Source of the DNA: Seleniivibrio sp.
GTDB taxonomy: Bacteria; Chrysiogenota; Deferribacteres; Deferribacterales; Geovibrionaceae
NCBI RefSeq assembly: GCF_021209385.1
Contig: NZ_JAJOIL010000028.1
Span: forward strand, 1-64,000
Reading direction: 5' to 3'
DNA: 64,000 nucleotides
A program made the position numbers and the translations under genes. The notes below the pieces were generated by a model. The model made no database searches, was not told the origin of the DNA, and saw nothing but the letters and a program-made list of their open reading frames with translations. This document shows, piece after piece, positions 43,047 to 62,701 of this stretch (its first letter is position 1; every line of letters begins with the position of its first letter).

Positions 43047-43076
43047 TCAGGCAGGCTCCGACCTGCCTTTTATTTT
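43047..43076 (+). terminator. Rho-independent terminator after the cupin gene
   Basis: AGGCAGG, loop CTCCGA and CCTGCCT, then TTTATTTT on the plus strand. The last bases overlap the stop codon of the convergent glycosyltransferase gene; in that direction no T-run follows. Confidence 0.88.
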
Positions 43077-43909
43077 GAGAATACTCTTCTTAATATCAGA
43101 TATGTTTTAAGTATAATATTGAAAACAAAAGGAATACGTATTCCGCACCTTTTCTGCTGCCTCACAGCGGCGCGAAACTGTGCAAAAACATCTCTTAAAT
43201 TTTTAAGCTTTGAAAACATATATCTAATATCTGTTTTCTGCGTGCCTATAGTGTTTCTTTCATGCTGGCGGTATAAGATGGTTGCCTTGTCCAGATAAAC
43301 TACCTTACCTCCGTACGCCAGTGCTGTCAGCCCTGCCCACCAGTCATGCACAATCGCTTCTTCCGGCATGTCTGTCAGTTTCTCCGCCAGTGAATGATTC
43401 ATCATCACCGTACATCCGGTGACAGTATTTTCCAGTGAAAGTTTTATAATATTATAGTTATTACTGACTTTTATCTTTTGAAATCTTATCATAGAATCCG
43501 AGATAACACTGAGATCACTTCCAACAACTTTCAAATCAGTATGAACCAGTATTGGTACATGCGGAAACAATTCTTCCGACTCTGTCATTTTCGCAAGAGT
43601 TGACTCAATTTTATCCTCCAGCCACACATCGTCCTGATCGCAGAACATGTAATAGTCAGATTTTCCTATGCAAAACTGAAGCAGGTGAGCGAAGTTTTCT
43701 TTTGCTCCGCCGCATTTGATGCCATCTTTAAGAATAATAATTCTTTCATCTTTGTACTCTTTTAGAATACATAAAGTTTCGTCCGATGAATCGTCGTCAT
43801 GAATATACATCTTAAAATCGGTAAAAGACTGGGAAAGCAGCGAATCTATCTGTTGAGAAATAAACTTACTTCCATTGTATGTCGCAAGAAGAACTGAAAC
43901 CGAACTCAT
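43070..43909 (-). CDS. Family 2 glycosyltransferase, rhamnosyltransferase-like
   Basis: A 279-residue GT-A protein: VSVLLATYNGSKFISQQIDS, MYIHDDDSSDETLCILKEY, FCDQDDVWLEDKIE (DXD) and NTVTGCTVMMNHSLAEKL then IVHDWWAGLTAL (acceptor-side motif). The sequence FCDQDDVW with HDWW is common in rhamnosyltransferases of O-antigen clusters. It is the last gene of the minus-strand polysaccharide operon, 6 bases after the next GT. Confidence 0.9.
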   Translation of the reverse strand: MSSVSVLLATYNGSKFISQQIDSLLSQSFTDFKMYIHDDDSSDETLCILKEYKDERIIILKDGIKCGGAKENFAHLLQFCIGKSDYYMFCDQDDVWLEDKIESTLAKMTESEELFPHVPILVHTDLKVVGSDLSVISDSMIRFQKIKVSNNYNIIKLSLENTVTGCTVMMNHSLAEKLTDMPEEAIVHDWWAGLTALAYGGKVVYLDKATILYRQHERNTIGTQKTDIRYMFSKLKNLRDVFAQFRAAVRQQKRCGIRIPFVFNIILKTYLILRRVFSK

Positions 43910-43915
43910 TAACTA

Positions 43916-44869
43916 TTATTCCTTGATACAGCTTAGAATTTTTTCACGCATCTTGACATCATCTAGGTAAATTTCCTCAGGAGCAATAACACCTCTCTGT
44001 CTGAGGGCGTTTATTTGCCAATAAAGAGCAAAAAACGTTTTTTCGTTTCCCTGAAAGTTAAAAGAATTAATGAGTTTCACTGCACTCTCGGCAATACTAT
44101 CTGAATCGTAAGATGTCATGATCATATCGGCAAATCTGTCGATATTTGCTGCAATTACCCAACAAATCTCAAAAAGCATCCATTTTTTATTAGTGGATAT
44201 CGTGTTAGTACCGTGTATTCTGTAATTAACAAGCGCTTCTTCGACATTTATACATCTGTATTTTGAACAAACACGTAGAAGGAAATCCCAATCATGAGCA
44301 AATCGAAGATTGCGCATTCCTCCTATTGTTTCGTAAACCTCTTTTCTAAAAATCATATTGCTGGTAGTTGATACAAAGTTAGACATAATGGCGTGAAGAG
44401 CATATTTGTTTTTATCGGCAAATGTTAAACCTTTATTGAATTCCCATGGCAACATGTTTTCCCATGCTTTTTTGACACCTTTCTTTTTACTGTCAGCATC
44501 AATAACGTTTATCCATGTTGAAACCAGTCCTGCATCTGGATTTTTTTCCATCACTTCAAGACATTTTTTTAATCTATGGGGATCAAATTCATCATCTGAG
44601 TTTAAAATGGCAAAAAAATCACCCTGTGCTATCTTCAACCCTCTGTTGATTGCATTATGGGCGCCTGCATTTTCTTGTCTTATATATTTTATTCTTTTGT
44701 CAGTGTATGCAGATATAATCCTATCAGAATCATCTTTAGACCCATCATCAATAATAATAAGCTCGAAATCACCTAAACTCTGGTTAAGGACACTATCGAT
44801 GCAACGTTTTATATACTTCTCATGGTTATAGCTTGGTATGACAATGCTGTATTTCATATCATTTTCCAT
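43916..44869 (-). CDS. Family 2 glycosyltransferase
   Basis: A 317-residue GT-A protein: YSIVIPSYNHEKYIKRCIDS, IIIDDGSKDDSDRII, NAGAHNAINRGLKIAQGDFF and AILNSDDEFDP (DXD). MRNLRFAHDWDFLLRVCSKY is the acceptor-side motif. The gene is visibly AT-rich compared with flanking regions. It overlaps the upstream SDR gene by 11 bases. Probable role in assembly of the exported polysaccharide. Confidence 0.9.
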   Translation of the reverse strand: MENDMKYSIVIPSYNHEKYIKRCIDSVLNQSLGDFELIIIDDGSKDDSDRIISAYTDKRIKYIRQENAGAHNAINRGLKIAQGDFFAILNSDDEFDPHRLKKCLEVMEKNPDAGLVSTWINVIDADSKKKGVKKAWENMLPWEFNKGLTFADKNKYALHAIMSNFVSTTSNMIFRKEVYETIGGMRNLRFAHDWDFLLRVCSKYRCINVEEALVNYRIHGTNTISTNKKWMLFEICWVIAANIDRFADMIMTSYDSDSIAESAVKLINSFNFQGNEKTFFALYWQINALRQRGVIAPEEIYLDDVKMREKILSCIKE

Positions 44870-45545
44870 AATATTTTTTTAAAAGCCTTTCAATGTATGT
44901 TTCGTCAAAAACTATGCCAAGATTTTTACATATCTCAAGGACATCTTTATCAACAACATCTCTATAAGGCTCTTCTAAAGAAGAAACAAAATCTTTTTCA
45001 ATTTTTAAACCCAGAATCGTTTCAAAAGCATCAACAATATCTGAAACACTGTGGCTCACAGGTTCGGCAAAACTAACTATATTGTTTGCGTATAGTCCTT
45101 TCTCTAGGATATAACTGACAAACAGCGTCACATCGTCAATATCAAGAAGATTCCTTTTAGCATTTTTAAAAATATTAACCTTTTCTCCGGCACTTATTTT
45201 AGAATGCAAATAGTTTGTTAATGTATGTATGTTACCACATTTTCCAACGACTTGCGGAAGTCTAAAAATCGTATAGTTTTCAAAGTTTTCAGCAACCAGC
45301 AGCTCCATGTTTTTTTTATGCCTGTAATAAAGTTGTTTTGTATAATTATCAAAATTAACAAAATAACTACTGAAATATATGAGCTTGTTTGCAGTACATT
45401 TAAAGCTCATAAGGAGATTCTCTTCTCTAAGAAAGTTGTTTTTGTCCGTTTCCGAAGAATTTGATACGCCGCTACAAAAAAAGATAGTGTCGCCTCTGTC
45501 GATACTTTTCATTGCATTAGCAAAAAGTCCTTTACCGACTATCAT
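44859..45545 (-). CDS. Short NAD-dependent epimerase/dehydratase-like protein
   Basis: A 228-residue extended-SDR relative, shorter than the usual 300 or more. A reduced Rossmann start (MIVGKGLFANAM) leads to DTIFFCSGVSNSSE, LIYFSSYFVN and a YxxxK catalytic pair (YYRHKK). FRLPQVVG and LLDIDDVTLFVSYIL follow as in WcaG-type enzymes. The short N-terminus appears natural for a small family in polysaccharide clusters, not a truncation, since it overlaps the upstream gene by 4 bases. It may modify a nucleotide sugar. Confidence 0.7.
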   Translation of the reverse strand: MIVGKGLFANAMKSIDRGDTIFFCSGVSNSSETDKNNFLREENLLMSFKCTANKLIYFSSYFVNFDNYTKQLYYRHKKNMELLVAENFENYTIFRLPQVVGKCGNIHTLTNYLHSKISAGEKVNIFKNAKRNLLDIDDVTLFVSYILEKGLYANNIVSFAEPVSHSVSDIVDAFETILGLKIEKDFVSSLEEPYRDVVDKDVLEICKNLGIVFDETYIERLLKKYYGK

Positions 45546-48448
45546 TTCCCCGTGTTCCTCAGATGTATAAGCGCCTTATTAAAGCATTGCACATACTGCA
45601 AAGAGATTTTTTCAGTACAAAAATCTTCTGCTATTCTATGCTTGTTCATCTCAGCATTCTTTTTGATATAAGCATAGTTGGCAATAAATTTGGTAAAGGA
45701 GTCCAAGTAACTATCGATTTCACCTGTTTTTTCAAAACAGACTCCGTTTTTATATTTTTCAAATACAAGCATGGTATCCCCTACATTGGTGGAAATCCCA
45801 GGAGTTCCAACGGAGAGAGCTTCAAGAAGAGCTATCGACAGTCCTTCGTAAAGAGATGTAAAAACTATTGCTTCTGCAATGGAACTAAGTTCAAAGGTAT
45901 TCTGTACGAACTCGAATCTAATAATGTAATCACTAAGTTCTTGCTCATTTATTAATTCGTCGACAGCCGCATTCAGTTCTCCGTTACCAGCCATGATAAA
46001 TCTGTAGTCATCTCCAAATTTTTCTTTAATCTTCGCAGATAACAAAACAATATCCAAGGGAGCTTTCTGTGCAGTTAACCTACCGATAAAAACAAAATAT
46101 TTATAAGCTGGATCCAATCCAAGTTTGTTACATTTTTCCTCGCGTGAAAGCTCAAGAGCGGAAGATCTTTTTTCCATGGCAAGAACAGAATATATCAGAT
46201 CTACATCTTCTTCCTTTATCCCGCATGAGATAAAAGTCTCTCTTATTTTTGAATTTATGGCTATATACCTGTCAAAAGAAAATAACCCTTTATCTCTCCT
46301 TTTATAAAGCTGAACCCATCCTGCTTCGGTATCGTAAACCTGCTGATCAACCACAGCACTATCAGAAAAAAGTTGTCTTAGAGTTACCGTATTTTCTGCA
46401 AGCCATGGACAGCCGTTACATATCCAGACTATCTGAGGTTTATATATGTCTTTAAGCATTTTCAAAACAGTAATGAAATTTTCTCTTTGTGCCAGTTCCC
46501 AAATATCAAAAACACCATCACAAAGCTGTTCAAAAACTCTGTGAAGACTACCTTGTTCAGGGCGATGATTTTCAAATGTTATAGCTATAAAATTATATCT
46601 GTCTTTTAATGTACTTACTATTTCAGCGGTATTTCGCTCAACCCCACCAACTGCCAAAATTGAAGGGATAACAAATACAGTTGGCTTCTCTCTTTTCACA
46701 GGAAATGACAATGGTAGCGGCAACAGTTTTTTCTTATTTATACCAACAGAAAAGCCATGCTCGTCGACAGTTGCATAATTGGCAGATGTCCCGTCTCTCT
46801 GTTCGGAAAACAATCGTAACACTTTAAAGGATTTAATGGTATCATCTGTGTTATAGACAATATCTACCTCGCCGCCTATCGTGCCTGTTTCTTTGAAACT
46901 TCCCAGACCTCTGGATAAGATAATACGACCAACACTAGCACCTGACCCAATAAAGACGAGTAGTTGCATAATTGATAATCTGCTGATTTCAAAACCTATA
47001 CGTGGGCTGTAAACATAGCCAGTCCCACAAACATCCCCGAAAACCAACACTCCGGGCAAACCGCTATATACTTTTCTAAGTTCATTCAGATAGATATCAT
47101 CCTTTGACGAAATATAGAGCCTTACGCCAACAATTTCTGCATATGCTCCCACTACAGAATCAAAAGCAGCAGAAGGCGCAAAAGAATTTATAAATGCAAG
47201 GGCAGATATGATATCGTTCAAATATCTTTCCGCAAAAATGAATGAAAGGACTTTATCGTCAGGATTTATCTCCTTTGAAACGACACCTTTTTCATAGAAA
47301 AACCTGAATAGTGTCCTGTATATTACACTGAGATGCTCTTCTAACTCATTGCCTTTTACACCGCTGTCCTCAACGTGCTGACACACAGCGATGATATCTT
47401 CAATATTCAGGTTTGTTGGTCTGAAATGATTTAAATATTTTTTCCATTTATGGACAATGGAATCTGTACAAACCAAATATTCCACTTCATTATGCAGCTT
47501 CTTGAAGACAAGCGCCATTTCACCAGCGACTTCCTGTCTGGTACAGAATTTTCTAACATCCCTGTAGGAATGATGGTGCTCCCCGCAAGCTTCAGGATAA
47601 AAATAAATCTGCATTCCCTTTTTCGCCAGTCTGTAACCCAGTTCTATGTCTTCAAAATTATATTTATAGAATCTCTCATCAAAAATAATATCTTCAGAAA
47701 GCAAAAAATCTCTGTCTATACTTATGTTGCAAGTATAAAAATGTCTGAAATCAACATATCCATGTTCTTTCAGTGAAGAGAAGCTAAACTGTTCCTGACC
47801 TATTTCAGTGATGTGTTTCATAAGAACGTTAGGTGTTATATCCTTATGCCATATAATGTTGCCAAGAACAGCTTTACACACTGGCAACTCTTTCAGTTTT
47901 CTGTAATGTTGATTTATTATCTGGGGATTTGGAAAAATATCGTCACCGATGATCAACAGTTTCTCACCCCTAGCGACTGAGATGGCATTGTTCCTGGCCT
48001 TTGCCGCTCCGCCATGCTCATTCTGAAGAACTACCAGCGGCAGATCTATTACATTTTTAAGGACAGCAACAGTATCATCCGAGGAACCATCGTCGGAAAA
48101 AATGATTTCATATCTGTATTCCGTTGCTTTATGTACCTCACGCAGACACTCTATGAGCGGAAGAAGGAGTACGGATCTGTTATATGTTGGAATTATTACA
48201 CTGACATCCAACTCGTATTCCCGATTTTCTCTTGAATACTCAGACCCTGATATATCAAATATCCTACTAAGCATATATTCACTTTTTATTCTGTAATAAA
48301 TCGAATAAGAAGTATAAAAAAAGCCGTCTTCACGTAATTTGCGCAATAAATTAATTCCGTGTTGGTAAAACCTGTATGTTGACTTTACTAACGGGATTTT
48401 TTTGGCAAAACTGCGTATTTTGTGGTTAAAGACGATTTTTTGTATCAT
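45542..48448 (-). CDS. Two-domain glycosyltransferase (GT2 fused to GT4)
   Basis: A 968-residue protein with two catalytic domains. Residues about 80-330 are GT2: DVSVIIPTYNRSVLLLPLIE, IIFSDDGSSDD, GGAAKARNNAISVARGEKLL, IIGDDIFPNP and YNFEDIELGYRLAKKG. Residues about 590-960 are GT4 (GT-B fold): VIPSILAVGGVERNTAEIV, FVFIGRLTAQKAP, FIMAGNGEL and the EX7E stretch VFTSLYEGLSIALLEALSVG. The 250 residues between contain a region ending SPRIGFEISR with no clear family. It would add two different sugar linkages. It overlaps both neighbours by 4 bases. Confidence 0.88.
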   Translation of the reverse strand: MIQKIVFNHKIRSFAKKIPLVKSTYRFYQHGINLLRKLREDGFFYTSYSIYYRIKSEYMLSRIFDISGSEYSRENREYELDVSVIIPTYNRSVLLLPLIECLREVHKATEYRYEIIFSDDGSSDDTVAVLKNVIDLPLVVLQNEHGGAAKARNNAISVARGEKLLIIGDDIFPNPQIINQHYRKLKELPVCKAVLGNIIWHKDITPNVLMKHITEIGQEQFSFSSLKEHGYVDFRHFYTCNISIDRDFLLSEDIIFDERFYKYNFEDIELGYRLAKKGMQIYFYPEACGEHHHSYRDVRKFCTRQEVAGEMALVFKKLHNEVEYLVCTDSIVHKWKKYLNHFRPTNLNIEDIIAVCQHVEDSGVKGNELEEHLSVIYRTLFRFFYEKGVVSKEINPDDKVLSFIFAERYLNDIISALAFINSFAPSAAFDSVVGAYAEIVGVRLYISSKDDIYLNELRKVYSGLPGVLVFGDVCGTGYVYSPRIGFEISRLSIMQLLVFIGSGASVGRIILSRGLGSFKETGTIGGEVDIVYNTDDTIKSFKVLRLFSEQRDGTSANYATVDEHGFSVGINKKKLLPLPLSFPVKREKPTVFVIPSILAVGGVERNTAEIVSTLKDRYNFIAITFENHRPEQGSLHRVFEQLCDGVFDIWELAQRENFITVLKMLKDIYKPQIVWICNGCPWLAENTVTLRQLFSDSAVVDQQVYDTEAGWVQLYKRRDKGLFSFDRYIAINSKIRETFISCGIKEEDVDLIYSVLAMEKRSSALELSREEKCNKLGLDPAYKYFVFIGRLTAQKAPLDIVLLSAKIKEKFGDDYRFIMAGNGELNAAVDELINEQELSDYIIRFEFVQNTFELSSIAEAIVFTSLYEGLSIALLEALSVGTPGISTNVGDTMLVFEKYKNGVCFEKTGEIDSYLDSFTKFIANYAYIKKNAEMNKHRIAEDFCTEKISLQYVQCFNKALIHLRNTGK

Positions 48449-49566
48449 TTAGTCCTCTTAATAATCTTGGCAACATTTTCTGATGCTAATAAAAATTTGC
48501 CGGATATAGATGACGCCAGATTCTTTTTCAGAGTTTTACACTCATCTCTGAGTTCATTAATTATTTCAGTATCGTCTTTTCTGCGTTTTAAAATGCTCTG
48601 TGCCGAAGCCTCGTGTCCGAATTCAATATAATCAATGCTGATTTCGACACTTTTCACATAAGTGCTTTCCCTTAGTGTGGTATAAATCTGTGGATCATCA
48701 ACTTCAAAATAGTATACCCCACTGTCATAAGAGGTTGAGTTTGAATAAGAGTGGTCAAGTTCAATCGTTTTTGAATCTGTTTCTACAAAAAAATGAATAT
48801 CCTTTACTACACAGGGGACATTCATCGGGTCAAAACGGAGATCTTTGACTTCTTCTCCTATTTCAAATCTGAAGATTCTCACTCCTTTTTCATATTCAAT
48901 TTCAATTATCCTGGATTCTTCTTCACGAAAATCAACGTCGTCACTTTTAAAGAAAAGCTGCCCATAAACAGGTAACGGTTTATCCTTAACAAGAAATGAA
49001 TAATTACTTCTGATATCTCTTTGCCCCTGTTTAATACCATAAAAATAAAGGTCAAAGGACATTGAATTAATTCCGAACTCATACATAGAAAATGAAGATT
49101 CAATATCAAGCACATCCCTGATATCTTGCTCTTCCAGATTCTTATAATAATCAGCCCATTCGTTTATATCCTGGAGAAAAGGGGCATCTTCAGGAGTAGT
49201 TCTTCTGGTACCATGTTCAGGTCTACCTGTGGTTGCACAGGTAAAAAGTAACAATCCGCCTTTTTTCAACATTCTATAACAATTCAATATTGTTTCTGCA
49301 TAATATCTATCATGTTCAAAACATTCAGTAGAAATAATAACATCAAATGTCTCATCGGGAAATTTGAGTTCATGTCCTTTTGAAACAATATCAACATTTC
49401 TACCAGCACGGATATCTACTCCTAAATACCCGCAGTTTTCAAAAAGGTACTGGTTGTTTCCGTTTATATCAAGAGAGCCTATATCCAGAACGAGCCCGTT
49501 TTTGAAATATCCGTTAAGTTTTGATTTTATATCGAGACAGTACTGTTTTTGTTGTGGATGAGCCAT
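48445..49566 (-). CDS. SAM-dependent methyltransferase with C-terminal beta and coiled-coil regions
   Basis: A 373-residue protein. Residues about 20-130 form a class I methyltransferase: LVLDIGSLDINGNNQYLF (motif I), YLGVDIRAGRNVDIV, LKFPDETFDVIISTECFEHD and MLKKGGLLLFTCAT. Residues about 190-310 are beta-strand rich, and 315-373 form a charged helix (LKRRKDDTEIINELRDECKT). In ABC-exported O-antigens, methyltransferases with coiled-coil tails (WbdD type) cap the chain; its place beside wzt makes that role plausible here. It ends 4 bases inside the GT2-GT4 gene. Confidence 0.8.
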   Translation of the reverse strand: MAHPQQKQYCLDIKSKLNGYFKNGLVLDIGSLDINGNNQYLFENCGYLGVDIRAGRNVDIVSKGHELKFPDETFDVIISTECFEHDRYYAETILNCYRMLKKGGLLLFTCATTGRPEHGTRRTTPEDAPFLQDINEWADYYKNLEEQDIRDVLDIESSFSMYEFGINSMSFDLYFYGIKQGQRDIRSNYSFLVKDKPLPVYGQLFFKSDDVDFREEESRIIEIEYEKGVRIFRFEIGEEVKDLRFDPMNVPCVVKDIHFFVETDSKTIELDHSYSNSTSYDSGVYYFEVDDPQIYTTLRESTYVKSVEISIDYIEFGHEASAQSILKRRKDDTEIINELRDECKTLKKNLASSISGKFLLASENVAKIIKRTK

Positions 49567-49584
49567 ATATCCTCATTGCTTATT

Positions 49585-50850
49585 TCAAGATTCTTTCAAA
49601 TCAATTTCACACCCTACATCACGAATAAGCTGCCCAAGTGTAGCTTTAACATCGCAGGATGTGATTCGGAACATAAAAACATCATGAATCCAGTGGTGTT
49701 GGATATGTATCTCCTGCGTTCCTTCTGCAACGGCAACGGAGAGACTAAACAAGCCATTGCACAGTAAAGGCATAACAAAACGATATTCAACAGTATACTC
49801 CTTTCCTTTTCCAAAGTCAGGTCGCAAATCAGAATGGGCATAAGTGTTTGCACCAAATATCGGATTACCGAGGTTGTCATTGACAACAAAGCCGCAAATG
49901 ACACTATCGACATTCTCCGCAGCCAGCATAACAACTTTCAGAACAACCTTTTCTCCTCCTTCAAAAGTTGTCTGAGAAACTAATTCACTATTGCCCAGAA
50001 AAACACGTTCAATAATGATTTTCTTATCTCCGAAAGAATCAAATTGTTCTGTGCTTATCCAGTTCAAATTACTGTTTTTTCGTTCCGTTTCTGTACCTTT
50101 ATCTGTATTCTTATCATATGCCATTGCCGCCAGATATCTTTTACAAACTATGTCCGGCGTGCCTTCATCATGCTTTCTTCCACCGTGTATCCATATAACC
50201 TGAGAACAGAAATTTATGACCGTTCCTGTGTCGTGGGTAACGAAAAGCACCGTAGTACCCGCCTCTTTCAAATCGCGAAACTTTCTGTAACATTTCTGCT
50301 GGAAACGTACATCTCCGACACTGAGAGCTTCGTCAACAATAAGTATTTCAGGGTCAACATTTATGGCAACGGCGAACGCCAAACGTGCGAACATACCGCT
50401 GGAATACATCTTTACAGGTTGATAAACGAACTCTCCGATATCGGCAAACTCCAGAATAGAATCAATCCTCTTATCCATCTCCGCCTGAGAATAGCCCATG
50501 ATCGTACCATTCATGTATACATTTTCTACACCTGTCATTTCCGGATTGAATCCGGCACCAAGCTCCAGAAGGGACGATATCCTGCCTTTGACATCTACAA
50601 TACCTGATGAGGGACTAACAACACCTGTCAGTATTTTAAGCAGAGTAGACTTCCCTGCTCCGTTCTTGCCGATGATACCAACAGTTTCACCACGTTTTAT
50701 GTCGAAACTGACATCTGTCAGTGCATAAAAATCTCTGTGATATTTTTTGCGCAAAGGATGGAATATCTCCTTCATCATATCCAGCGGACGATCATACAGG
50801 TTGTATTTCTTGGTCAGATTTCTGACGCTAATGATAATGTCGTCTGTCAT
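49585..50850 (-). CDS. wzt: Polysaccharide ABC exporter ATPase, Wzt-type
   Basis: A 421-residue protein. The ATPase domain (residues 1-250) has Walker A GIIGKNGAGKST, signature VKMYSSGMFARLAFAVAI, Walker B ILIVDEALSVGD and VTHDTGTVINF. Residues about 280-421 form the beta-rich C-terminal domain (ERVFLGNSELVS ... FGANTYAHSDLRPDFG ... IQHHWIHDVFMF), which in Wzt binds the modified end of the polysaccharide. ATG 50850 overlaps the wzm stop by 4 bases; a longer TTG frame would run into wzm. Confidence 0.94.
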   Translation of the reverse strand: MTDDIIISVRNLTKKYNLYDRPLDMMKEIFHPLRKKYHRDFYALTDVSFDIKRGETVGIIGKNGAGKSTLLKILTGVVSPSSGIVDVKGRISSLLELGAGFNPEMTGVENVYMNGTIMGYSQAEMDKRIDSILEFADIGEFVYQPVKMYSSGMFARLAFAVAINVDPEILIVDEALSVGDVRFQQKCYRKFRDLKEAGTTVLFVTHDTGTVINFCSQVIWIHGGRKHDEGTPDIVCKRYLAAMAYDKNTDKGTETERKNSNLNWISTEQFDSFGDKKIIIERVFLGNSELVSQTTFEGGEKVVLKVVMLAAENVDSVICGFVVNDNLGNPIFGANTYAHSDLRPDFGKGKEYTVEYRFVMPLLCNGLFSLSVAVAEGTQEIHIQHHWIHDVFMFRITSCDVKATLGQLIRDVGCEIDLKES

Positions 50851-51659
50851 ATCACATCCGCAAAATGAGGGCGTAGTTTTCTGAAAACTGTTGCTCCGGC
50901 TAAAAGTATAATAACGGTAACCACCCAAAAATAAACCGTAAGCCAACCATGTTCCCAGAACCAGACTCTATAAAGCAGAGCCTCTCGAAACCCTTCGGTT
51001 ATATGGTAAATCGGATTGAGTTTGAGATATATTTGATAACGTTCAGGAATTATATGTATTGACCAAAAAATGGGCGTTCCCCAAAAACCGAACTGTATAA
51101 ACATATTGATCAGCTGACCAACATCTTTCATAAATACAACCAGAGCTGATGTCAGAAGTGAAAGCCCAAGCATAAGCACCAAAAGTGCAAATATATAATA
51201 AATTATCTGAATATTATAAATGGAAAAACCAGTGTGGTATATCAGCATGAACAGCAATATCACAAGCAGGAAGAAAAGATGTATCACAAACGAAGACATA
51301 ATCTTCATGAGAGGAAGTAGACTGACACGAAATACCACTTTATTCACAAGGTACTTGTATTCTATTATCGAGTTGGTGGCATTCCCCCACCCTTCGGCAA
51401 AGAAAAACCATGGAACCATACCCGTAAGAAGCCACAAGAGAAACGGAACATTACCAACCGGTTTTGATTTGAAACCAACTTCAAAGACAAACCAGAATAT
51501 CAGGATAGTGACGGCAGGCTGAACAAAAGCCCAGAGAAGCCCTAGATGAGACCCCAGGTATTTTGATCTAAAATCTCTTTTTGCAAACTGCACAAGCAAA
51601 TTTCTCGACCTGTACACATCGGCAATGAAAAAGAATAATGACAATACGGTCTTCAACAT
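50847..51659 (-). CDS. wzm: Polysaccharide ABC exporter permease, Wzm-type
   Basis: A 270-residue ABC-2 membrane protein with about six TM helices. LLVQFAKRDFRSKYLGSHLG, LLWAFVQPAVTILIFWFVF and LNPIYHITEGFREALLY are the family hallmarks. It forms with Wzt the channel that moves undecaprenyl-linked polysaccharide across the inner membrane. The ATG at 51659 has a GGAA upstream; one further TTG codon is possible. Confidence 0.94.
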   Translation of the reverse strand: MLKTVLSLFFFIADVYRSRNLLVQFAKRDFRSKYLGSHLGLLWAFVQPAVTILIFWFVFEVGFKSKPVGNVPFLLWLLTGMVPWFFFAEGWGNATNSIIEYKYLVNKVVFRVSLLPLMKIMSSFVIHLFFLLVILLFMLIYHTGFSIYNIQIIYYIFALLVLMLGLSLLTSALVVFMKDVGQLINMFIQFGFWGTPIFWSIHIIPERYQIYLKLNPIYHITEGFREALLYRVWFWEHGWLTVYFWVVTVIILLAGATVFRKLRPHFADVI

Positions 51660-51677
51660 CAACAGTTCCTGCGTCCT

Positions 51678-52502
51678 TTATATTGCAAGTATTTTTCTGA
51701 GACTACTGTTTATGTTACGGCGTTCCCTGTCAAAAAGCCAGCCCCATTTATTGAAATATTTAATAGCCGATGAGATATGTATCATTCTCTGGCGCATATA
51801 TTTATAAGAGCCGCGTCCTCTGTGATGATAAATAAAGATTGAAGGGACATAATAGCTGCCTTCAAAACTGTTGAATCGTCTGGAGAAATCGACATCTTCC
51901 ATGAAGACGAAAAACCTTTCGTCAAAATATCCTGCTTTTTTAATGGCAGTTTTTCTGAGAAACATGAAACAACCGGAAAGATTTGCAGTTCTTATGCTTT
52001 CATCTTTGTCATATGACTGGAGTTCATAACGTTTATTATACCTGTTTACAAGTTTTTCAGGCAGATATTGATGAAACATTCTTATGATCAGGTCAAACGG
52101 TGTCGGCAGAAGCTTTGCGGCATATTGATTTTCACCGTTGACAGACAGAACCTTCGGAACGATAAGTCCTGCTTCCGGGTGTCTGTCCATATATTCAGCA
52201 AGTTGCTCAGGCACATCATGTTCAAAATACACGTCAGGATTACATATGATGTGATATTCGGAGATAATATCGTATCTATCTCTGATTACAATATTATGCC
52301 CGCCTCCAAATCCAATATTCCTTTCGGTGTTTATGATTTCGATGCGTTCGTTTTCACTGTAATCATGAAGATCAGTGTCAGAATTATTTATTATATATAT
52401 TTTGGATATACACTCTCTGTTCAGCAGGCTCCTCATGGTGTCAGCAAAAACACTGAGATCAGTATCATAGTATACAATTAAAACTGTAATATTATATTTC
52501 AT
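51678..52502 (-). CDS. Family 2 glycosyltransferase, WbbL/rhamnosyltransferase-like
   Basis: A 274-residue GT2 protein: NITVLIVYYDTDLSVFADTM, IYIINNSDTDLHDY, RNIGFGGGHNIVI, HIICNPDVYFEHDVPEQLA and RFFVFMEDVDFSRRFNSFEG. NIGFGGGHN with CNPDV and FMEDVDFSRR is the WbbL-type rhamnosyltransferase pattern. It is the first gene of the polysaccharide operon, so may add an early sugar. No convincing promoter is seen in the 143 bases upstream. Confidence 0.9.
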   Translation of the reverse strand: MKYNITVLIVYYDTDLSVFADTMRSLLNRECISKIYIINNSDTDLHDYSENERIEIINTERNIGFGGGHNIVIRDRYDIISEYHIICNPDVYFEHDVPEQLAEYMDRHPEAGLIVPKVLSVNGENQYAAKLLPTPFDLIIRMFHQYLPEKLVNRYNKRYELQSYDKDESIRTANLSGCFMFLRKTAIKKAGYFDERFFVFMEDVDFSRRFNSFEGSYYVPSIFIYHHRGRGSYKYMRQRMIHISSAIKYFNKWGWLFDRERRNINSSLRKILAI

Positions 52503-56056: not shown

Positions 56057-56527
56057 TTATTTATTGAACATCGGTGTCTTGATCTGCCACTTATCTTCTT
56101 CCAGAATGACCTGCTTTGCAAGTTTTTTCTCAGAGTTCATTACCAGCGGCGCCCTGAGGTTCATTGTGGCGTTTTTAGGCTGGTCGGGAACAACGACGAT
56201 ACAGAACAGTTTCAGCTTGCTTTCATCCTCTGCTCCGAGAATTTTAAGCTCGCGTTTGTTCAGTCTGGGTGTGTACTCCTGAACAAAAAGTTCCGGTTCC
56301 ACAAGGATAAAACAGATATCCTTGTCCTGAACCGACTGGAACCAAAGGAAAGGATAAGACTTTTCGTTCGATATAAGAATAAAATCGTTCAGATCGGGAA
56401 AACCCAGCATAGGGGACGACAAAGTGATTATGTCGTTCTCCGTGAAGGAAATTTCTCCCAGTTTACCGGATACTATCTTTCTGGTTTCCATTGTATCCTC
56501 ACATATATTGACAGAATTTGCACCCAT
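56057..56527 (-). CDS. fliW: Flagellar assembly factor FliW
   Basis: A 156-residue protein. TRKIVSGKLGEISFTENDII, GFPDLNDFILISNEKSYPFL and WFQSVQDKDICFILVEPELF match FliW, followed by VPDQPKNATMNLRAPLVMNS. FliW sequesters CsrA and is itself held by flagellin, making a partner switch. ATG 56527 has AGGAGA ahead; ATG 12 codons in (56491, with GAGGA ahead) would give the more usual family N-terminus METRKI. It lies between flgL and csrA. Confidence 0.94.
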   Translation of the reverse strand: MGANSVNICEDTMETRKIVSGKLGEISFTENDIITLSSPMLGFPDLNDFILISNEKSYPFLWFQSVQDKDICFILVEPELFVQEYTPRLNKRELKILGAEDESKLKLFCIVVVPDQPKNATMNLRAPLVMNSEKKLAKQVILEEDKWQIKTPMFNK

Positions 56528-56574: not shown

Positions 56575-59500
56575 TTACAGATAATCAAGCAGACTTACAT
56601 TTAAAAGCAGCGATGTTGATTTCAGCGCATACTGGTAAGCCGTTTCGGCAACTGTAAGATCCGCCGAAGCCTGTGTCTGGTCTATGAGTGTCGATCCTGT
56701 ATATTTCGCTTTCAGCTCCTCTGTTGTGAGCTGAAGCGACTGATTGAACGTTATTGCGGATTCCGCTTTACTGGTACTGTTACCAACGGTAGTAAGCGCG
56801 GAAAGAACCTGAGATTCCGCCTGTTCCAGCACGTCCAGTTCATATTCGATACCGGAACCGACAGCAGCAGTGAAAGAATCCGTGGCATAAAGATATCCGG
56901 CGTCATAATACTGATAAACGCCATCCGCCACATAATATTTCTCGCCTGCGGTATCCATCGAATATGTATTTATAAGTTCGCCGTCGTCTCCTGTGACCTT
57001 TATCTTAACAGAATCGCCCGCCTTGGCAAATCCAAGCGTGCTTTCGTAGTCACCGGAAACGGCAGTACCTGTTACGCCATTGAACACGAAGCCTATTCCG
57101 TTTGTCCCTGTCAGTTCAGCCTGAACAACGCCGCTGATACCGGCATCGGATAGCTTTTCGTTTATATTTGCGATCATGTCTTCATATGTCATGAAGTTTT
57201 CCGCATCAACCTCAATGCTCACAGTGTGGTCGGTACCGTCGTTGTATGAAAAGGTCAAAGTTCTCTGTTCCGAGTTCTTCTCGCTGAGATCCATTGTTAC
57301 CGCGGATCTGTTAACGACAGTATCGGCTCCGACTTTGTTCTGAAAGCCGAGGGCGCCTGTTTCATCACCTGAAACTATAATATCGGATGTAGGACCGGAA
57401 AATGAAATTAAATTTCCGGCATCAAGCGAAACACTGACTCCGGCAGGAAGCTGAGGCGTTATGACAGCCAGCAGCGCCGAGCTGTCCGCATAATCCACAT
57501 TCGGTACGGTTACTGTGGTGTTCTGCCATGCTGCACCGTCATAGTAGTCTATATTCAGCGTTACCGGATTGTCCAGATTGCTGAGAGCAAGCTCGGCAGT
57601 GGTCTCGGCTCTTGCCGGATATGCATCGTCCATGCCCATCACATAGGCGGACAGGTCATCGTCATAATTTACGTCAATCTCCATTGCGCCTGAGTTTGTA
57701 TCAATGCGGAGCTGTCCGTTATCGTTATAAGCTCTCACACCCATCTGCTGAAGATCGTAATCGGAATTTATCTGCGTAACAAAATCGTCAAGTTTATCTG
57801 CCGCCGTGGCTGCTGATGACGAGAAGTTTCTTGTCACTTTACCGTCTTCGGTGTTCAGAACAAGTTCAAAACCAACCGTACCGACGTTCAGGTCTTTAAA
57901 GGTGGATGAAGTCCATTCCTGTTTTTTCTGGAGATAGAAATCACTCTGGGAATCGTTATACTGAACTTCAAAGTTGAATATCTCGTTATAGTTTCCGCGG
58001 AACTCACCGTCCAGATAAGGAACGGCAGAAGAACCGAGATCCTCTTTAGACCATGAACTAGGTGCGCCGATACCTGAATCGGGGATGTTCATCTCAAGGG
58101 CAAAATAGAGGTTCTCGAGGGATTTGAAAACGTTGACGTTCTCACCCTTTTCCGTGATGTTCAGATCGCCGAAGCTGAGGTTTGAGTTGGCTGTCAGCTC
58201 AAGCTCGAACGATGTTGTAATAGGTGTTGCGGAATTGGCGATATCGCCGAGCTGTATCTTAACCCCGTTGCCTATCTCTATTTCTCCGCCGTTATAAGAT
58301 GCTTTTGAAATGGGGCTTGCGGAGTTGTCATAAACAAGATTTCCGAGTTTGTCGGTAACCTGAATAGTGATATCGGTTGCGCCGACGTTCACGGTAACGT
58401 TCCAGTTGTCGTCCTTTTTGGAACTGTAATAACCGGAGAGCATTATATCGGAAGAGTTTTGTGCATAACCGATACCTGAGTTGTTCTCGTCGATGGCAAA
58501 TGTCATTTTGCTTGTGCCGCTTCTGAGATCTTTAACCTGAAGCTTGCCGTCAACAAGGGTTGCGTCCACAGCATTTCCGTAAAGGTTTTCAATATATGAA
58601 AGCATATCGCTTATACGTTTTTCATCATCAATGGGATAGTCGCTGCCCCTTGGCGTATCGAACTGATAATCGGTTCCGACCTTTGTGGCAAGATATGTTT
58701 CATCGGTATATTCACAGTTCATCAGTTCAAATTTGATGTCATATTGTCCGGGCGTTGCCGCATCAGTAACGTTTGCGTATACGTCAAAACCCATTCCGTT
58801 GTCCATCAGCGCCTGATTGAGCGCGGACTGGATGTCGGCAGCAGAACCGGATGCCGGAGTAAAACCGATTGTCTGACCGTTCACGGATACTTCCGTGTAA
58901 ACTCCACCTGTTATCGGAACATCGGTATGTGTTGTAGAAACGGGACCGACATAGTTGTCATACGCAAGTTCAAAGGTTGTATCCATACCGTTTGCTGTAA
59001 CAGGGAGGTCTTTGAATCCCAGCCTGTTGTTTTCGGAACCTGTGACGGATAACTGCACACCCTCGCCTGTTCTGTTGGATATGAACATGAGCCTGTCGCC
59101 GTCGCTTACAGCGGACATTTCTCCGCCCAAACCCAGATTTTCAAGGCTTCTGTTGATGTCGAAAATAACCTCGTCCATATCTGAATAACCTTTCTGGGAA
59201 AGTGTTATGTCATAGTCTCTGTTACCGTATGTAACAGTTATGGTTCTTTCCTCTTCGGAAGCTTCAGACATATCAAGGTTAACGTTTCCGGGAGATGAGA
59301 CTCTTGCCGTACCGATGGCATAGCCGTTATGGTCTGTTCCGGAAAACTTCATAGAATCCGCGGTGCTGACGTTAGCGCCGTCTATCTGCGAGAATTTTGT
59401 CGTATTAGTAATGCCTATTCCGTTAACGGTGTTTCTGGTGGTGCCTTTCGTGGTTCTGTAGGTCTCCATAAAGGTATCCTGACCGCTCACGTTTATAACA

Positions 59501-60360
59501 ACTTCCTGGTTGGAAGCTATTTTTGATGTTATCTGCCCGTCGTCGCCCACATATGTGATATCGTCGCCGGGAGTATAGTAAAACTGCATCTTGATACTCT
59601 GACCGTTAGGTATATCGTCAGGAAGCTTTATACCGACACCGACACCGGTGTTGATAACGCCTTCTCCGTTATATGCCGCTACAAGAGTATTGGTGGTAAT
59701 GTTGCCTGTGGTTGTGGTCTCGTCCGAACCGTTGCTGTCCAGAAGAACGGATTTGCCCAGAGAATCGGTCATTGTCACATATGAAACGCCGTCCATAACG
59801 CTAACGTTAACGGTGTATGCGCCCTCTGACAGCTCCGGCATGTCGCCGAAAAGTTTTTTGGATATCGCTTCTGTACCTGAATATGAAGAAACCACAGCGG
59901 AAACTTCTCTGTCACCGGAAACGAATGGCTGTGTCTGTGTTTCATATCCGCCGAAAACATATCTGCCGAGATACTGTGAGTTGCCGATATCCTTCATCGC
60001 ATTCAGTATTGAAAGAACATCACCCGCAAGAGCTTTACGGCTTTCCGCGTTCTGGCTGTCATTTCGTCCGGCTACGGCGAGTTCGTTGCGCGCCTTTGCA
60101 AGATAATCATAGGCTGTCTGGAGAAGATTGTCCTCGTTGTCAAGCCATGTCACAGCGTTGTCGGCATTTCTGCCGTACTGGGTCGCCTCGTTTGACATAA
60201 TCTGCATATTATATGCCGTAACATAATATGTGGGATCGTCTTCAGGATTGAGCATGTTTCTTCCTGCTGCGACCCTTTCATTGGCATCCAGAAGGTTAGA
60301 AAGACTTCTGGCATTACCGGAAGTGTAATTCATATGTATCATATTTGTAGTGATTCTCAT
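56575..60360 (-). CDS. flgL: Giant flagellar hook-filament junction protein FlgL
   Basis: A 1261-residue protein; FlgL is usually 290-420. The ends are standard: an N-terminal flagellin-type helix region (MRITTNMIHMNYTSGNARSL through NADNAVTWLDNEDNLLQTAY, residues 1-140) and a C-terminal one (QASADLTVAETAYQYALKST, about 1170-1261). The central 1000 residues are beta-rich, with duplicated modules: residues about 362-450, 923-1007 and 1023-1112 each end in an LGF motif and resemble Flagellin_IN; residues about 181-261 and 652-722 resemble each other. It lies 12 bases after flgK, and would form a junction ring with large surface-exposed domains. Confidence 0.93.
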   Translation of the reverse strand: MRITTNMIHMNYTSGNARSLSNLLDANERVAAGRNMLNPEDDPTYYVTAYNMQIMSNEATQYGRNADNAVTWLDNEDNLLQTAYDYLAKARNELAVAGRNDSQNAESRKALAGDVLSILNAMKDIGNSQYLGRYVFGGYETQTQPFVSGDREVSAVVSSYSGTEAISKKLFGDMPELSEGAYTVNVSVMDGVSYVTMTDSLGKSVLLDSNGSDETTTTGNITTNTLVAAYNGEGVINTGVGVGIKLPDDIPNGQSIKMQFYYTPGDDITYVGDDGQITSKIASNQEVVINVSGQDTFMETYRTTKGTTRNTVNGIGITNTTKFSQIDGANVSTADSMKFSGTDHNGYAIGTARVSSPGNVNLDMSEASEEERTITVTYGNRDYDITLSQKGYSDMDEVIFDINRSLENLGLGGEMSAVSDGDRLMFISNRTGEGVQLSVTGSENNRLGFKDLPVTANGMDTTFELAYDNYVGPVSTTHTDVPITGGVYTEVSVNGQTIGFTPASGSAADIQSALNQALMDNGMGFDVYANVTDAATPGQYDIKFELMNCEYTDETYLATKVGTDYQFDTPRGSDYPIDDEKRISDMLSYIENLYGNAVDATLVDGKLQVKDLRSGTSKMTFAIDENNSGIGYAQNSSDIMLSGYYSSKKDDNWNVTVNVGATDITIQVTDKLGNLVYDNSASPISKASYNGGEIEIGNGVKIQLGDIANSATPITTSFELELTANSNLSFGDLNITEKGENVNVFKSLENLYFALEMNIPDSGIGAPSSWSKEDLGSSAVPYLDGEFRGNYNEIFNFEVQYNDSQSDFYLQKKQEWTSSTFKDLNVGTVGFELVLNTEDGKVTRNFSSSAATAADKLDDFVTQINSDYDLQQMGVRAYNDNGQLRIDTNSGAMEIDVNYDDDLSAYVMGMDDAYPARAETTAELALSNLDNPVTLNIDYYDGAAWQNTTVTVPNVDYADSSALLAVITPQLPAGVSVSLDAGNLISFSGPTSDIIVSGDETGALGFQNKVGADTVVNRSAVTMDLSEKNSEQRTLTFSYNDGTDHTVSIEVDAENFMTYEDMIANINEKLSDAGISGVVQAELTGTNGIGFVFNGVTGTAVSGDYESTLGFAKAGDSVKIKVTGDDGELINTYSMDTAGEKYYVADGVYQYYDAGYLYATDSFTAAVGSGIEYELDVLEQAESQVLSALTTVGNSTSKAESAITFNQSLQLTTEELKAKYTGSTLIDQTQASADLTVAETAYQYALKSTSLLLNVSLLDYL

Positions 60361-60372
60361 GTCAGCCCCCTC

Positions 60373-62124
60373 TTATCTGCCGCCGGTACCGAGACCGTTA
60401 ACTATCTTGTCGATCATCTCATCGACAACGTTGATGAATCTTGCACTCGCCTCATAGGCTCTCTGAAAACGGATGATATCCGCCATCTCCTCGTCGAGCG
60501 AAACGCCTTTGATACTCTCCAGTTTCAGAGAATATTCATCCACAAGGTTCTCTTTTGTGGTGGCATAGGTGTCTGCAGTAGATTTGTCGGTTGCTATTGT
60601 TCCGATGAACAGTGAATAAAACTCGTCCAGAGTTACATTATGGTCGAGCAGGTCTGTGTTCTTAAGGTCTGCAATAGCCGCCGCGTTGGTGTTATCGCCG
60701 ACAGCTCCCGACTGGGATGTGGCAAGATAGCCGATGTTCTCTTTGATCAGAGTGGAAACATCGATGTTAGACGCATCCTGACCGGAGAAGAAACCGTAGG
60801 TTCCGGAAGCAACGAGAAAACCGGACGTATCCTCAGCAAAGGAGAACGTATATCCGGATTCAGAAGTTATTTTAAGTGTGTTGCTCTGTGAAAGGGAAGC
60901 CTGTATCAGACCGCCGTTGGGGTTGCCGTCAGCGTAAGATATCTTTGATATTACAGAGTTGAGAGAGTCTTTTGAAGGATCTATCTCTATGTCGAGATTC
61001 TGCACCAGATTGCCCTCAGTATCGTAAACCGCAATACGGAGAACTCCTTCATTAACAGCCGAAGGCAATGCACCGGCAGTTTCACCAAGGGGGTATGACG
61101 GGTTTTTGACACCGCTTGAGGATGTTATCTGGGTAAGTCTGTCAGAACCCTGACCCAGAGCGTGCAGTTTATTTGTAGAAGTTATAAGCGAAGCCGCGAG
61201 ATCATCAAGCTGATCCATGTAATTCTGCGACAGATTGTCGCGCACTTCAAGTTCGCCGCCTATTTTTCCGGAATTGAATGCGGATGTGATATTCACACTC
61301 TCTTCACCGGTGGTCTTTGAACCCCAGTAGATGCTTACGTCAGTATCGCTGCCGGATGTCTGGGCTGCCGTAAGGGTGAAATAGTTCCCCTCGTCAACCA
61401 GTGCGTTTCCGTTCACATAAACGGCAACCTGACCGGAAGAACGTTCCACAACAGATATGTTGGTAAGCTCGGAAAGGTCGTTCAGCAGAAGTTCCCTCTG
61501 GTCGCGGAGATCATTCGCCATAGAACCTGTCGCCTCAATTAAAGCTATCTGTCCGTTCAGATAGGAGATGTTCTGGGAAATGGAATTTATTTCGGAAACA
61601 TAATCTTTGATATTTTTGTTCGATTGTTCCTGCATACCTTCGAGTGCAGAATAACTTGCGCGTATCTTCTCCGCCAGAACGGATGCTTTTTCAACAACAG
61701 TCTGCTTTTTGATAAGCGCTTCGTCGGATTCGTCGGTTGCTGTGTTCGCAAGGTCGCTCCATGCATCAAAATATTCCGCCATCGCTTCGCCAAGCCCCGA
61801 ACCGTCTTCAAGTTCGTTGAAATATATCTCAATGTTGGTAAGGGTATCCTGAAGTGTTGTGTAATACGCAAGATCTGAAGTCTCATTCCTTATGGTAGAC
61901 GCAAGAACAGAGTCGTATACCTGTACAACATTCTCTACGGATACACCTCGTCCGAAAACTCCGTAGCTTGTGGTCTGTGAGTTTGATGTCACAAGGCTCA
62001 CTCTCTGTCTGGAGTATCCAGGGGTGTCTACGTTTGTAATGTTGTTACCGGCAACGTCAATTTGCGCCTGTGAAGCAAAAAGTCCCGATACGCCTGTGGA
62101 TAATATTCCTAATATGTTTCCCAT
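60373..62124 (-). CDS. flgK: Flagellar hook-associated protein FlgK
   Basis: A 583-residue HAP1. The N-terminal ILSTGVSGLFASQAQIDVAG with NNITNVDTPGYSRQRV and the C-terminal SLDEEMADIIRFQRAYEASA with RFINVVDEMIDKIVNG are the flagellar rod/hook family motifs. Length is normal. It joins hook to filament together with FlgL, encoded just downstream. FlgN, its export chaperone, is encoded upstream. Confidence 0.97.
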   Translation of the reverse strand: MGNILGILSTGVSGLFASQAQIDVAGNNITNVDTPGYSRQRVSLVTSNSQTTSYGVFGRGVSVENVVQVYDSVLASTIRNETSDLAYYTTLQDTLTNIEIYFNELEDGSGLGEAMAEYFDAWSDLANTATDESDEALIKKQTVVEKASVLAEKIRASYSALEGMQEQSNKNIKDYVSEINSISQNISYLNGQIALIEATGSMANDLRDQRELLLNDLSELTNISVVERSSGQVAVYVNGNALVDEGNYFTLTAAQTSGSDTDVSIYWGSKTTGEESVNITSAFNSGKIGGELEVRDNLSQNYMDQLDDLAASLITSTNKLHALGQGSDRLTQITSSSGVKNPSYPLGETAGALPSAVNEGVLRIAVYDTEGNLVQNLDIEIDPSKDSLNSVISKISYADGNPNGGLIQASLSQSNTLKITSESGYTFSFAEDTSGFLVASGTYGFFSGQDASNIDVSTLIKENIGYLATSQSGAVGDNTNAAAIADLKNTDLLDHNVTLDEFYSLFIGTIATDKSTADTYATTKENLVDEYSLKLESIKGVSLDEEMADIIRFQRAYEASARFINVVDEMIDKIVNGLGTGGR

Positions 62125-62153: not shown

Positions 62154-62633
62154 TTAGCCTGTCTGACAGATAGTTGACGTTTTAACAGACTTATACTGCT
62201 TTGAAATGCCGTATGTGTTTCTGCCTGCTATGCCGAGCTTCTGGAAAAGCCCGTCAATAAGCGTCATATTTGTCTTGAAGAGAATTTTGAGTGAAGTGTT
62301 CGCGTCGTTCACTTTTTTTGTAAGGGTGACAAGCTCATTGCGGACTGCCATCAGCTCTGAGGAATGTTCCCCTGCAAGTTCACGCGCGATGATCTCAACA
62401 CGAAGCCCTTCGCGCTCGTGCTGTTTTTCGATCTTTTTGATACAGTTGATAAAAGCCTCATTGATAACCTTTTCTTTATAAGCGAGGGTATCCTTGATCT
62501 TCGCCAGCTCGTTTGTACGGGCGGCGTTCCACTTCATTGCGGCTTCTTTTTCCTGTTGAAGAATGGACAGCATCTCAGTGTAAACTTTTTTCTGAGAGTC
62601 CATTATCTCAAGCAATGCTTTGATGTTCTCCAT
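62154..62633 (-). CDS. flgN: Flagellar export chaperone FlgN
   Basis: A 159-residue helical protein: MENIKALLEIMDSQKKVYTE, MLSILQQEKEAAMKWNAART, then LVTLTKKVNDANTSLKILFK and FQKLGIAGRNTYGISKQYKS. FlgN proteins share this coiled-coil pattern; sequence identity across the family is low, so position between flgM and flgK counts heavily. ATG 62633 is chosen because GGAGG lies 7 bases ahead; a longer frame reaches 62669. Confidence 0.85.
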   Translation of the reverse strand: MENIKALLEIMDSQKKVYTEMLSILQQEKEAAMKWNAARTNELAKIKDTLAYKEKVINEAFINCIKKIEKQHEREGLRVEIIARELAGEHSSELMAVRNELVTLTKKVNDANTSLKILFKTNMTLIDGLFQKLGIAGRNTYGISKQYKSVKTSTICQTG

Positions 62634-62701
62634 CTCATACCTCCGAATGATTCGGCAGTTATGAGACACAGGTCAGAACGGGAATTTTGACTAAAGTTTT
62701 T

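Follow-up and report, generated by a model that had tools for sequence, protein, structure and literature searches.

A giant FlgL in Deferribacterota: Flagellin_IN modules and three predicted insertions in the D1 core

Introduction

What kind of protein is encoded by an flgL gene of about four times the ordinary length, how has it grown, and what may the added mass do at the flagellar junction? The gene in question lies on the reverse strand at 56575..60360 of the window, by which we mean the whole stretch of 64,000 nucleotides analysed here, from Seleniivibrio sp. (contig NZ_JAJOIL010000028.1). The FlgL ring of Salmonella and Campylobacter has 11 subunits and supports the cap, and mechanical stress is buffered at the junction (PMC12221982). 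Outer-domain growth is well described for flagellins, but two flagellin surveys sorted FlgL out, and we found no paper on giant FlgL.

Results and Discussion

Identity of the Gene and Its Locus

The gene is an intact open reading frame of 1261 codons plus the stop. Its product scored 146.2 bits with the NCBIfam model of FlgL, TIGR02550, against a cut-off of 127.2. Directly upstream lies flgK (60373..62124, reverse strand), which codes for 583 aa, an ordinary length, and was found upstream of flgL in 40 of 40 relatives. It is preceded by flgN (62154..62669, reverse strand; PF05130), coding for the export chaperone of FlgK and FlgL. The downstream gene, fliW (56057..56527, reverse strand; PF02623), adjoins flgL in 34 of the 40. 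The whole order, flgI, flgJ-like, flgM, flgN, flgK, flgL and fliW, is close to the surroundings of ordinary flgL genes. The score above the curated cut-off and the flgK neighbour within a flagellar operon place the protein in FlgL. It does not behave as a flagellin (FliC), for Flagellin_N matched with 40 bits and Flagellin_C was unlisted, compared with 147 and 88 bits in a flagellin of the same genome. The closest named records are 85% identical across the entire protein.

The original prediction took the flagellin-like ends for intact and named a frameshift merging two genes as one finding that would speak against it. Both ends are indeed in place, with Flagellin_N at residues 3-141 and D1 alpha4 plus the C-terminal part of D0 from residue 1170. 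A merger or frameshift is ruled out by the uninterrupted frame and by 40 orthologues from other genomes, collinear from end to end except for one that stops at a contig edge. The D0 and D1 helices, the S3 hairpin, alpha3 and alpha4 are present in order, as judged by sequence profile and not by structure. The best explanation is that the product is the functional FlgL of this genome, which by analogy with other FlgLs would form the upper ring of the hook-filament junction, on the side of the filament.

Near the flagellar operon, at 43070-52502, the window also carries glycosyltransferases, a methyltransferase and an ABC-type polysaccharide exporter pair, possibly a glycan cluster.

Three Insertion Sites in D1

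An HMM built from seven ordinary FlgLs matched the giant FlgLs in collinear pieces, the middle two being weak in each protein alone, and the core pieces were placed by profile-profile comparison over 60-residue windows (all coordinates below are on the reverse strand). The N-terminal part of D0 with D1 alpha1-alpha2, residues 1-150 (59911..60360), includes the Flagellin_N match and reached an iE of 1.8e-33 with the HMM. The S3 beta hairpin was placed at residues 266-298 (59467..59565; E 2e-7 to ordinary FlgLs, next best elsewhere 0.008), and alpha3 at residues 743-761 (58078..58134; E 1.9e-5, next best elsewhere 0.013), a placement that depends on 19 residues. The last piece, D1 alpha4 and the C-terminal part of D0, residues 1170-1261 with the stop (56575..56853), was placed with E 1e-6 and matches C. 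jejuni FlgL 661-750.

Because the hairpin, alpha3 and alpha4 fall at these places, the inserts are set at about residues 151-265, 299-742 and 762-1169, and on these profile placements the D1 core appears to be interrupted at three sites. The first insert, I1 (59566..59910), is missing from those solved FlgLs, C. jejuni included, that can be aligned in this region; in them the hairpin comes directly after the first ~150 residues. The second, I2 (58135..59466), corresponds to the usual D2 site (PMC6155364). The third, I3 (56854..58077), occupies the alpha3-alpha4 interval according to the placement of its flanking core pieces. The extra mass of about 1000 residues between the ends, which the original prediction had pointed out, is therefore there, but it does not form a single block, since it encloses the core pieces 266-298 and 743-761. 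That prediction did not include the three sites, the assignment of the modules to Flagellin_IN or the conservation throughout the phylum.

Repeat Modules in the Inserts

Three stretches had been aligned by eye and two others paired by a common pattern. The first three, modules A (residues 358-452, 59005..59289, Flagellin_IN type), B (920-1010, 57331..57603) and C (1018-1114, 57019..57309), are similar to each other far above chance. Profiles of 41 orthologues gave E 1.8e-21 (A-C), 1.6e-18 (B-C) and 5e-13 (A-B), and none of the 406 pairs of column-shuffled controls rose above 8.6% probability. The single-sequence test gave z = 10.3 (A-C), 5.1 (A-B) and 4.6 (B-C). Module A keeps the same place in the orthologues. 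The pair X (181-264, 59569..59820) and Y (652-722, 58195..58407) is also real and weaker, with z = 3.4 and a profile-profile E of 6.1e-6.

More copies are present than had been noticed. Module D (~478-570, 58651..58929), a distant relative of A and C, gave E 3.2e-5 to A and 3.3e-5 to flagellins of the phylum. Module F (~822-905, 57646..57897), a distant relative of B and C with the same predicted topology, gave E 1e-7 to B and 2.1e-6 to C. Segment E (575-645, 58426..58638) has E 1.6e-5 to F and carries a motif common to C. jejuni FlgL 265-321 (i-Evalue 6.5e-5).

To which family do these modules belong? Among full-length family members, PF07196 (Flagellin_IN) matched 11 of 28, the best with 2.1e-8; among single modules it matched 9 of 17, the best with 3.2e-5. 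It was unlisted in the Pfam search of the window's own FlgL, whose modules are assigned to the family because they are homologous to those other members. By profile homology, then, the repeats belong to Flagellin_IN; three copies are clear and at least two more (D and F) are distant. Their relation to flagellins of the same genome is clear for D only and the similarity to FliD is weak; a recent common origin with the same-genome flagellins was rejected, as only D is clearly similar.

The AlphaFold2 models rest on three close sequences. For residues 815-1120 (pLDDT 57.9, pTM 0.33), the predicted order strand-strand-helix-strand-strand-strand is identical in F, B and C, and in the full-length model A and D have a like order at low overall confidence (pLDDT 39.7). 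A Foldseek search with the 815-1120 model gave H. pylori FliD (6iwy) as the best match, with E 5.2e-5 and low TM-scores, followed by a Vibrio filament; the search with the full-length model was, like the model itself, uninformative overall.

Growth History of the Modules

Were the homologous modules gained at once or stepwise? In the module tree, A (100/99) and B (99/97) each form a clade that extends over several families and into another order of the class. Module C, with few columns available, did not come out as a single clade. Modules A and C are common to the whole class and B is missing in families f2-f5. The two related genera g3 and g4 carry an additional module nested in the B clade (100/98), and from its position in the tree it is read as a lineage-specific tandem duplication. 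With B missing from four families and doubled in tandem in two genera, the modules were gained stepwise. The growth by internal duplication that had been proposed for this gene thus agrees with the homology of the modules, the A and B clades and the lineage-specific tandem B. No direct DNA repeats longer than 15 nt were found within flgL, and the duplications are therefore old; this lack of long repeats and the module tree rule out a recent duplication of A, B and C.

Distribution and Conservation in the Phylum

Fifty-one Deferribacterota genomes were surveyed, and no phylum-specificity is claimed. The open frames of FlgL ranged from 1142 to 1544 aa in 42 tabulated cases, so the large size, for which a length comparison had been proposed, is kept wherever an open frame was measurable. 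One FlgL of 3226 aa (genome G021) proved to be spurious, owing to a masked stretch of N, and an apparent shortening in family f8 was rejected, as the gene ends at a contig edge. A scan of viral contigs found no relatives of giant FlgL. Two near-complete genomes of one genus (G026 and G028) had no match for FlgL, FliD or flagellin and are presumably non-flagellate through an apparent loss of flagella; a third genome of this genus has all three proteins.

Among 41 sequences, the lengths of core and linkers (32, 60, 18, 61, 56 and 91 residues) differ little or not at all and I1 varies only from 113 to 123, while length changes mostly in modules A, D, F and B. In ten genomes the identity was 0.415 at the ends of FlgL, 0.38-0.475 in I1, the hairpin and three linkers, and 0.23-0.34 in modules A, B, C, D and F. 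The flagellins of the same genomes had 0.645 at the ends and 0.373 in the centre. The linkers and I1 thus show roughly the conservation of the core and are not hypervariable, and the modules change quickly.

These observations bear on two possible explanations of the inserts. Fast module evolution and the different copy number among lineages would agree with neutral growth, in which modules were kept since the extension of an exposed 11-copy ring costs little and brings no specific benefit. We hold this to be improbable, because every lineage in which FlgL could be measured has kept the large size and the linkers of the inserts are conserved like the core. Outer flagellar domains bind surfaces in some bacteria, and the variable module sequences would also suit adhesion, a role put forward in the original prediction, to surfaces or other cells. 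Yet no adhesin, lectin or enzyme domain appeared above the cut-off, the scaffold is conserved throughout the phylum and constrained, with its linkers, to the degree of the core, and the 11 copies expected per flagellum are few in comparison with flagellin. An adhesive role therefore seems very improbable.

Partner Proteins at the Junction

How large are the neighbours of this FlgL? FlgK is ordinary (~588 aa) in the genomes with giant FlgL, and the flagellins reach ~800 aa and FliD ~900 aa. FlgE-like proteins are also large, with frames of 829-966 aa, their identification resting on hook-family matches. FliD measures 870-1020 aa in most of the phylum, and the family medians of FlgL and FliD correlate (n = 9, rho 0.81, without phylogenetic correction). 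The coupling of FlgL with the cap is loose, because two families fit poorly: f8 (G049, G050) has FliD of 511-513 aa beside a giant-type, contig-cut FlgL, and f9 (G015, G016), with genomes of ~1.3 Mb, has FliD frames of 1336-1349 aa and a mid-sized FlgL. These f9 frames are the largest caps among the surveyed genomes.

In the genome of the window itself, outside the window (G000:C14:20065-20957), the C-terminal region of FliD runs across two frames (789 and 119 aa), in contrast to 11 relatives in the family with a single frame of 880-940 aa; the split is either an assembly error or a real frameshift. Several flagellin genes lie on contigs C10, C20, C29 and C37 of this genome, some at contig ends, probably because the copies are nearly identical and interrupted the assembly. 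In related genomes at least three flagellins of ~800 aa occur.

The main rival to the role that we favour below is a stiffening clamp against torque, in which the inserts would interlock between neighbouring FlgL subunits, or with outer domains of FlgE and flagellin, instead of matching a diameter or seating the cap. The near-fixed length of the linkers and I1 and their core-like conservation suggest contacts, and in Salmonella filaments are lost to shear more readily when the FlgK/FlgL interface is mutated (PMC12221982). However, the modules vary in sequence and number, unlike a tight interface, and FlgK, which FlgL meets at the joint, is of ordinary size. We consider this explanation rather unlikely.

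Possible Role of the Inserts

A junction ring with bulky exposed domains, as originally suggested, may fairly be drawn from the solved FlgLs (PMC6155364, PMC12221982), and a mechanical or assembly role of the inserts is plausible. We lean slightly towards a widened junction collar matched to the bulky filament and cap. D0 and D1 would do the usual job, with 11 copies forming the ring between FlgK and the first flagellins. The added mass sits in three inserts, of which I1 precedes the S3 hairpin, I2 takes the D2 site ahead of alpha3, and I3 separates alpha3 from alpha4. These inserts, consisting largely of Flagellin_IN copies and the X/Y pair on linkers of nearly fixed length, would probably project outward as a thick collar. 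Such a collar could fit the diameter of a filament made from ~800-residue flagellins, seat the enlarged FliD cap (~900 residues) at the start of filament growth and, as a mechanical benefit, keep the joint stable under torque.

A wider proposal is more tentative, and we give it somewhat less than even chances: that this is a phylum-wide form of the junction, with three D1 insertions, two of them at sites unused in the solved FlgLs compared, and that the large module-built collar co-evolved with the FliD cap and the outer domains of flagellin while FlgK stayed ordinary. The interest of the case lies in a protein of presumably 11 copies that remains some four times longer than usual throughout a phylum, while its scaffold is conserved and its module gains can be counted. 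The natural series (A and C; A, B and C; A, doubled B and C) could be used to ask what a junction must match, be it filament diameter, cap size or torque.

Comparison with Known Systems

The giant FlgL does not represent a new kind of system; it is an unusual variant of FlgL assembled from modules of a known type. The closest known system is C. jejuni FlgL (750 aa, PDB 9GSX), together with the long model NF006265/PRK08412 (827 positions). C. jejuni also has a long FlgL, whose bulky D2 lies beside the D4 domain of an enlarged FliD in the junction-cap structure (PMC12221982). The giant-FlgL profile matches it in order: the N-terminal 149 residues, the hairpin, the I2 motif at 265-321 and the C-terminal 90. 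However, it is 500 residues shorter and its hairpin follows straight after residue 149, so it lacks I1. The long model matches only the N-terminal part and one further short stretch.

In Xanthomonas campestris FlgL (D1-D2 structure, PMC6155364), the D2 domain is a beta domain in the S3 segment that splits alpha3, which is the site of I2, but this D2 is single and small and there are no counterparts of I1 and I3. Giant flagellins (PMC6248924) offer the likeness in mode of growth, as their outer domains were enlarged stepwise by internal duplication and insertion, and Deferribacteres are listed among them; they differ in that the filament subunit is concerned, FlgL having been sorted out of that survey. 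Finally, FliD D2-D4 and flagellin D2 (Flagellin_IN, PF07196) are alike in module sequence family and, as far as the low-confidence models show, in predicted fold, but here the Flagellin_IN modules, in their three clear and at least two distant copies, sit in FlgL.
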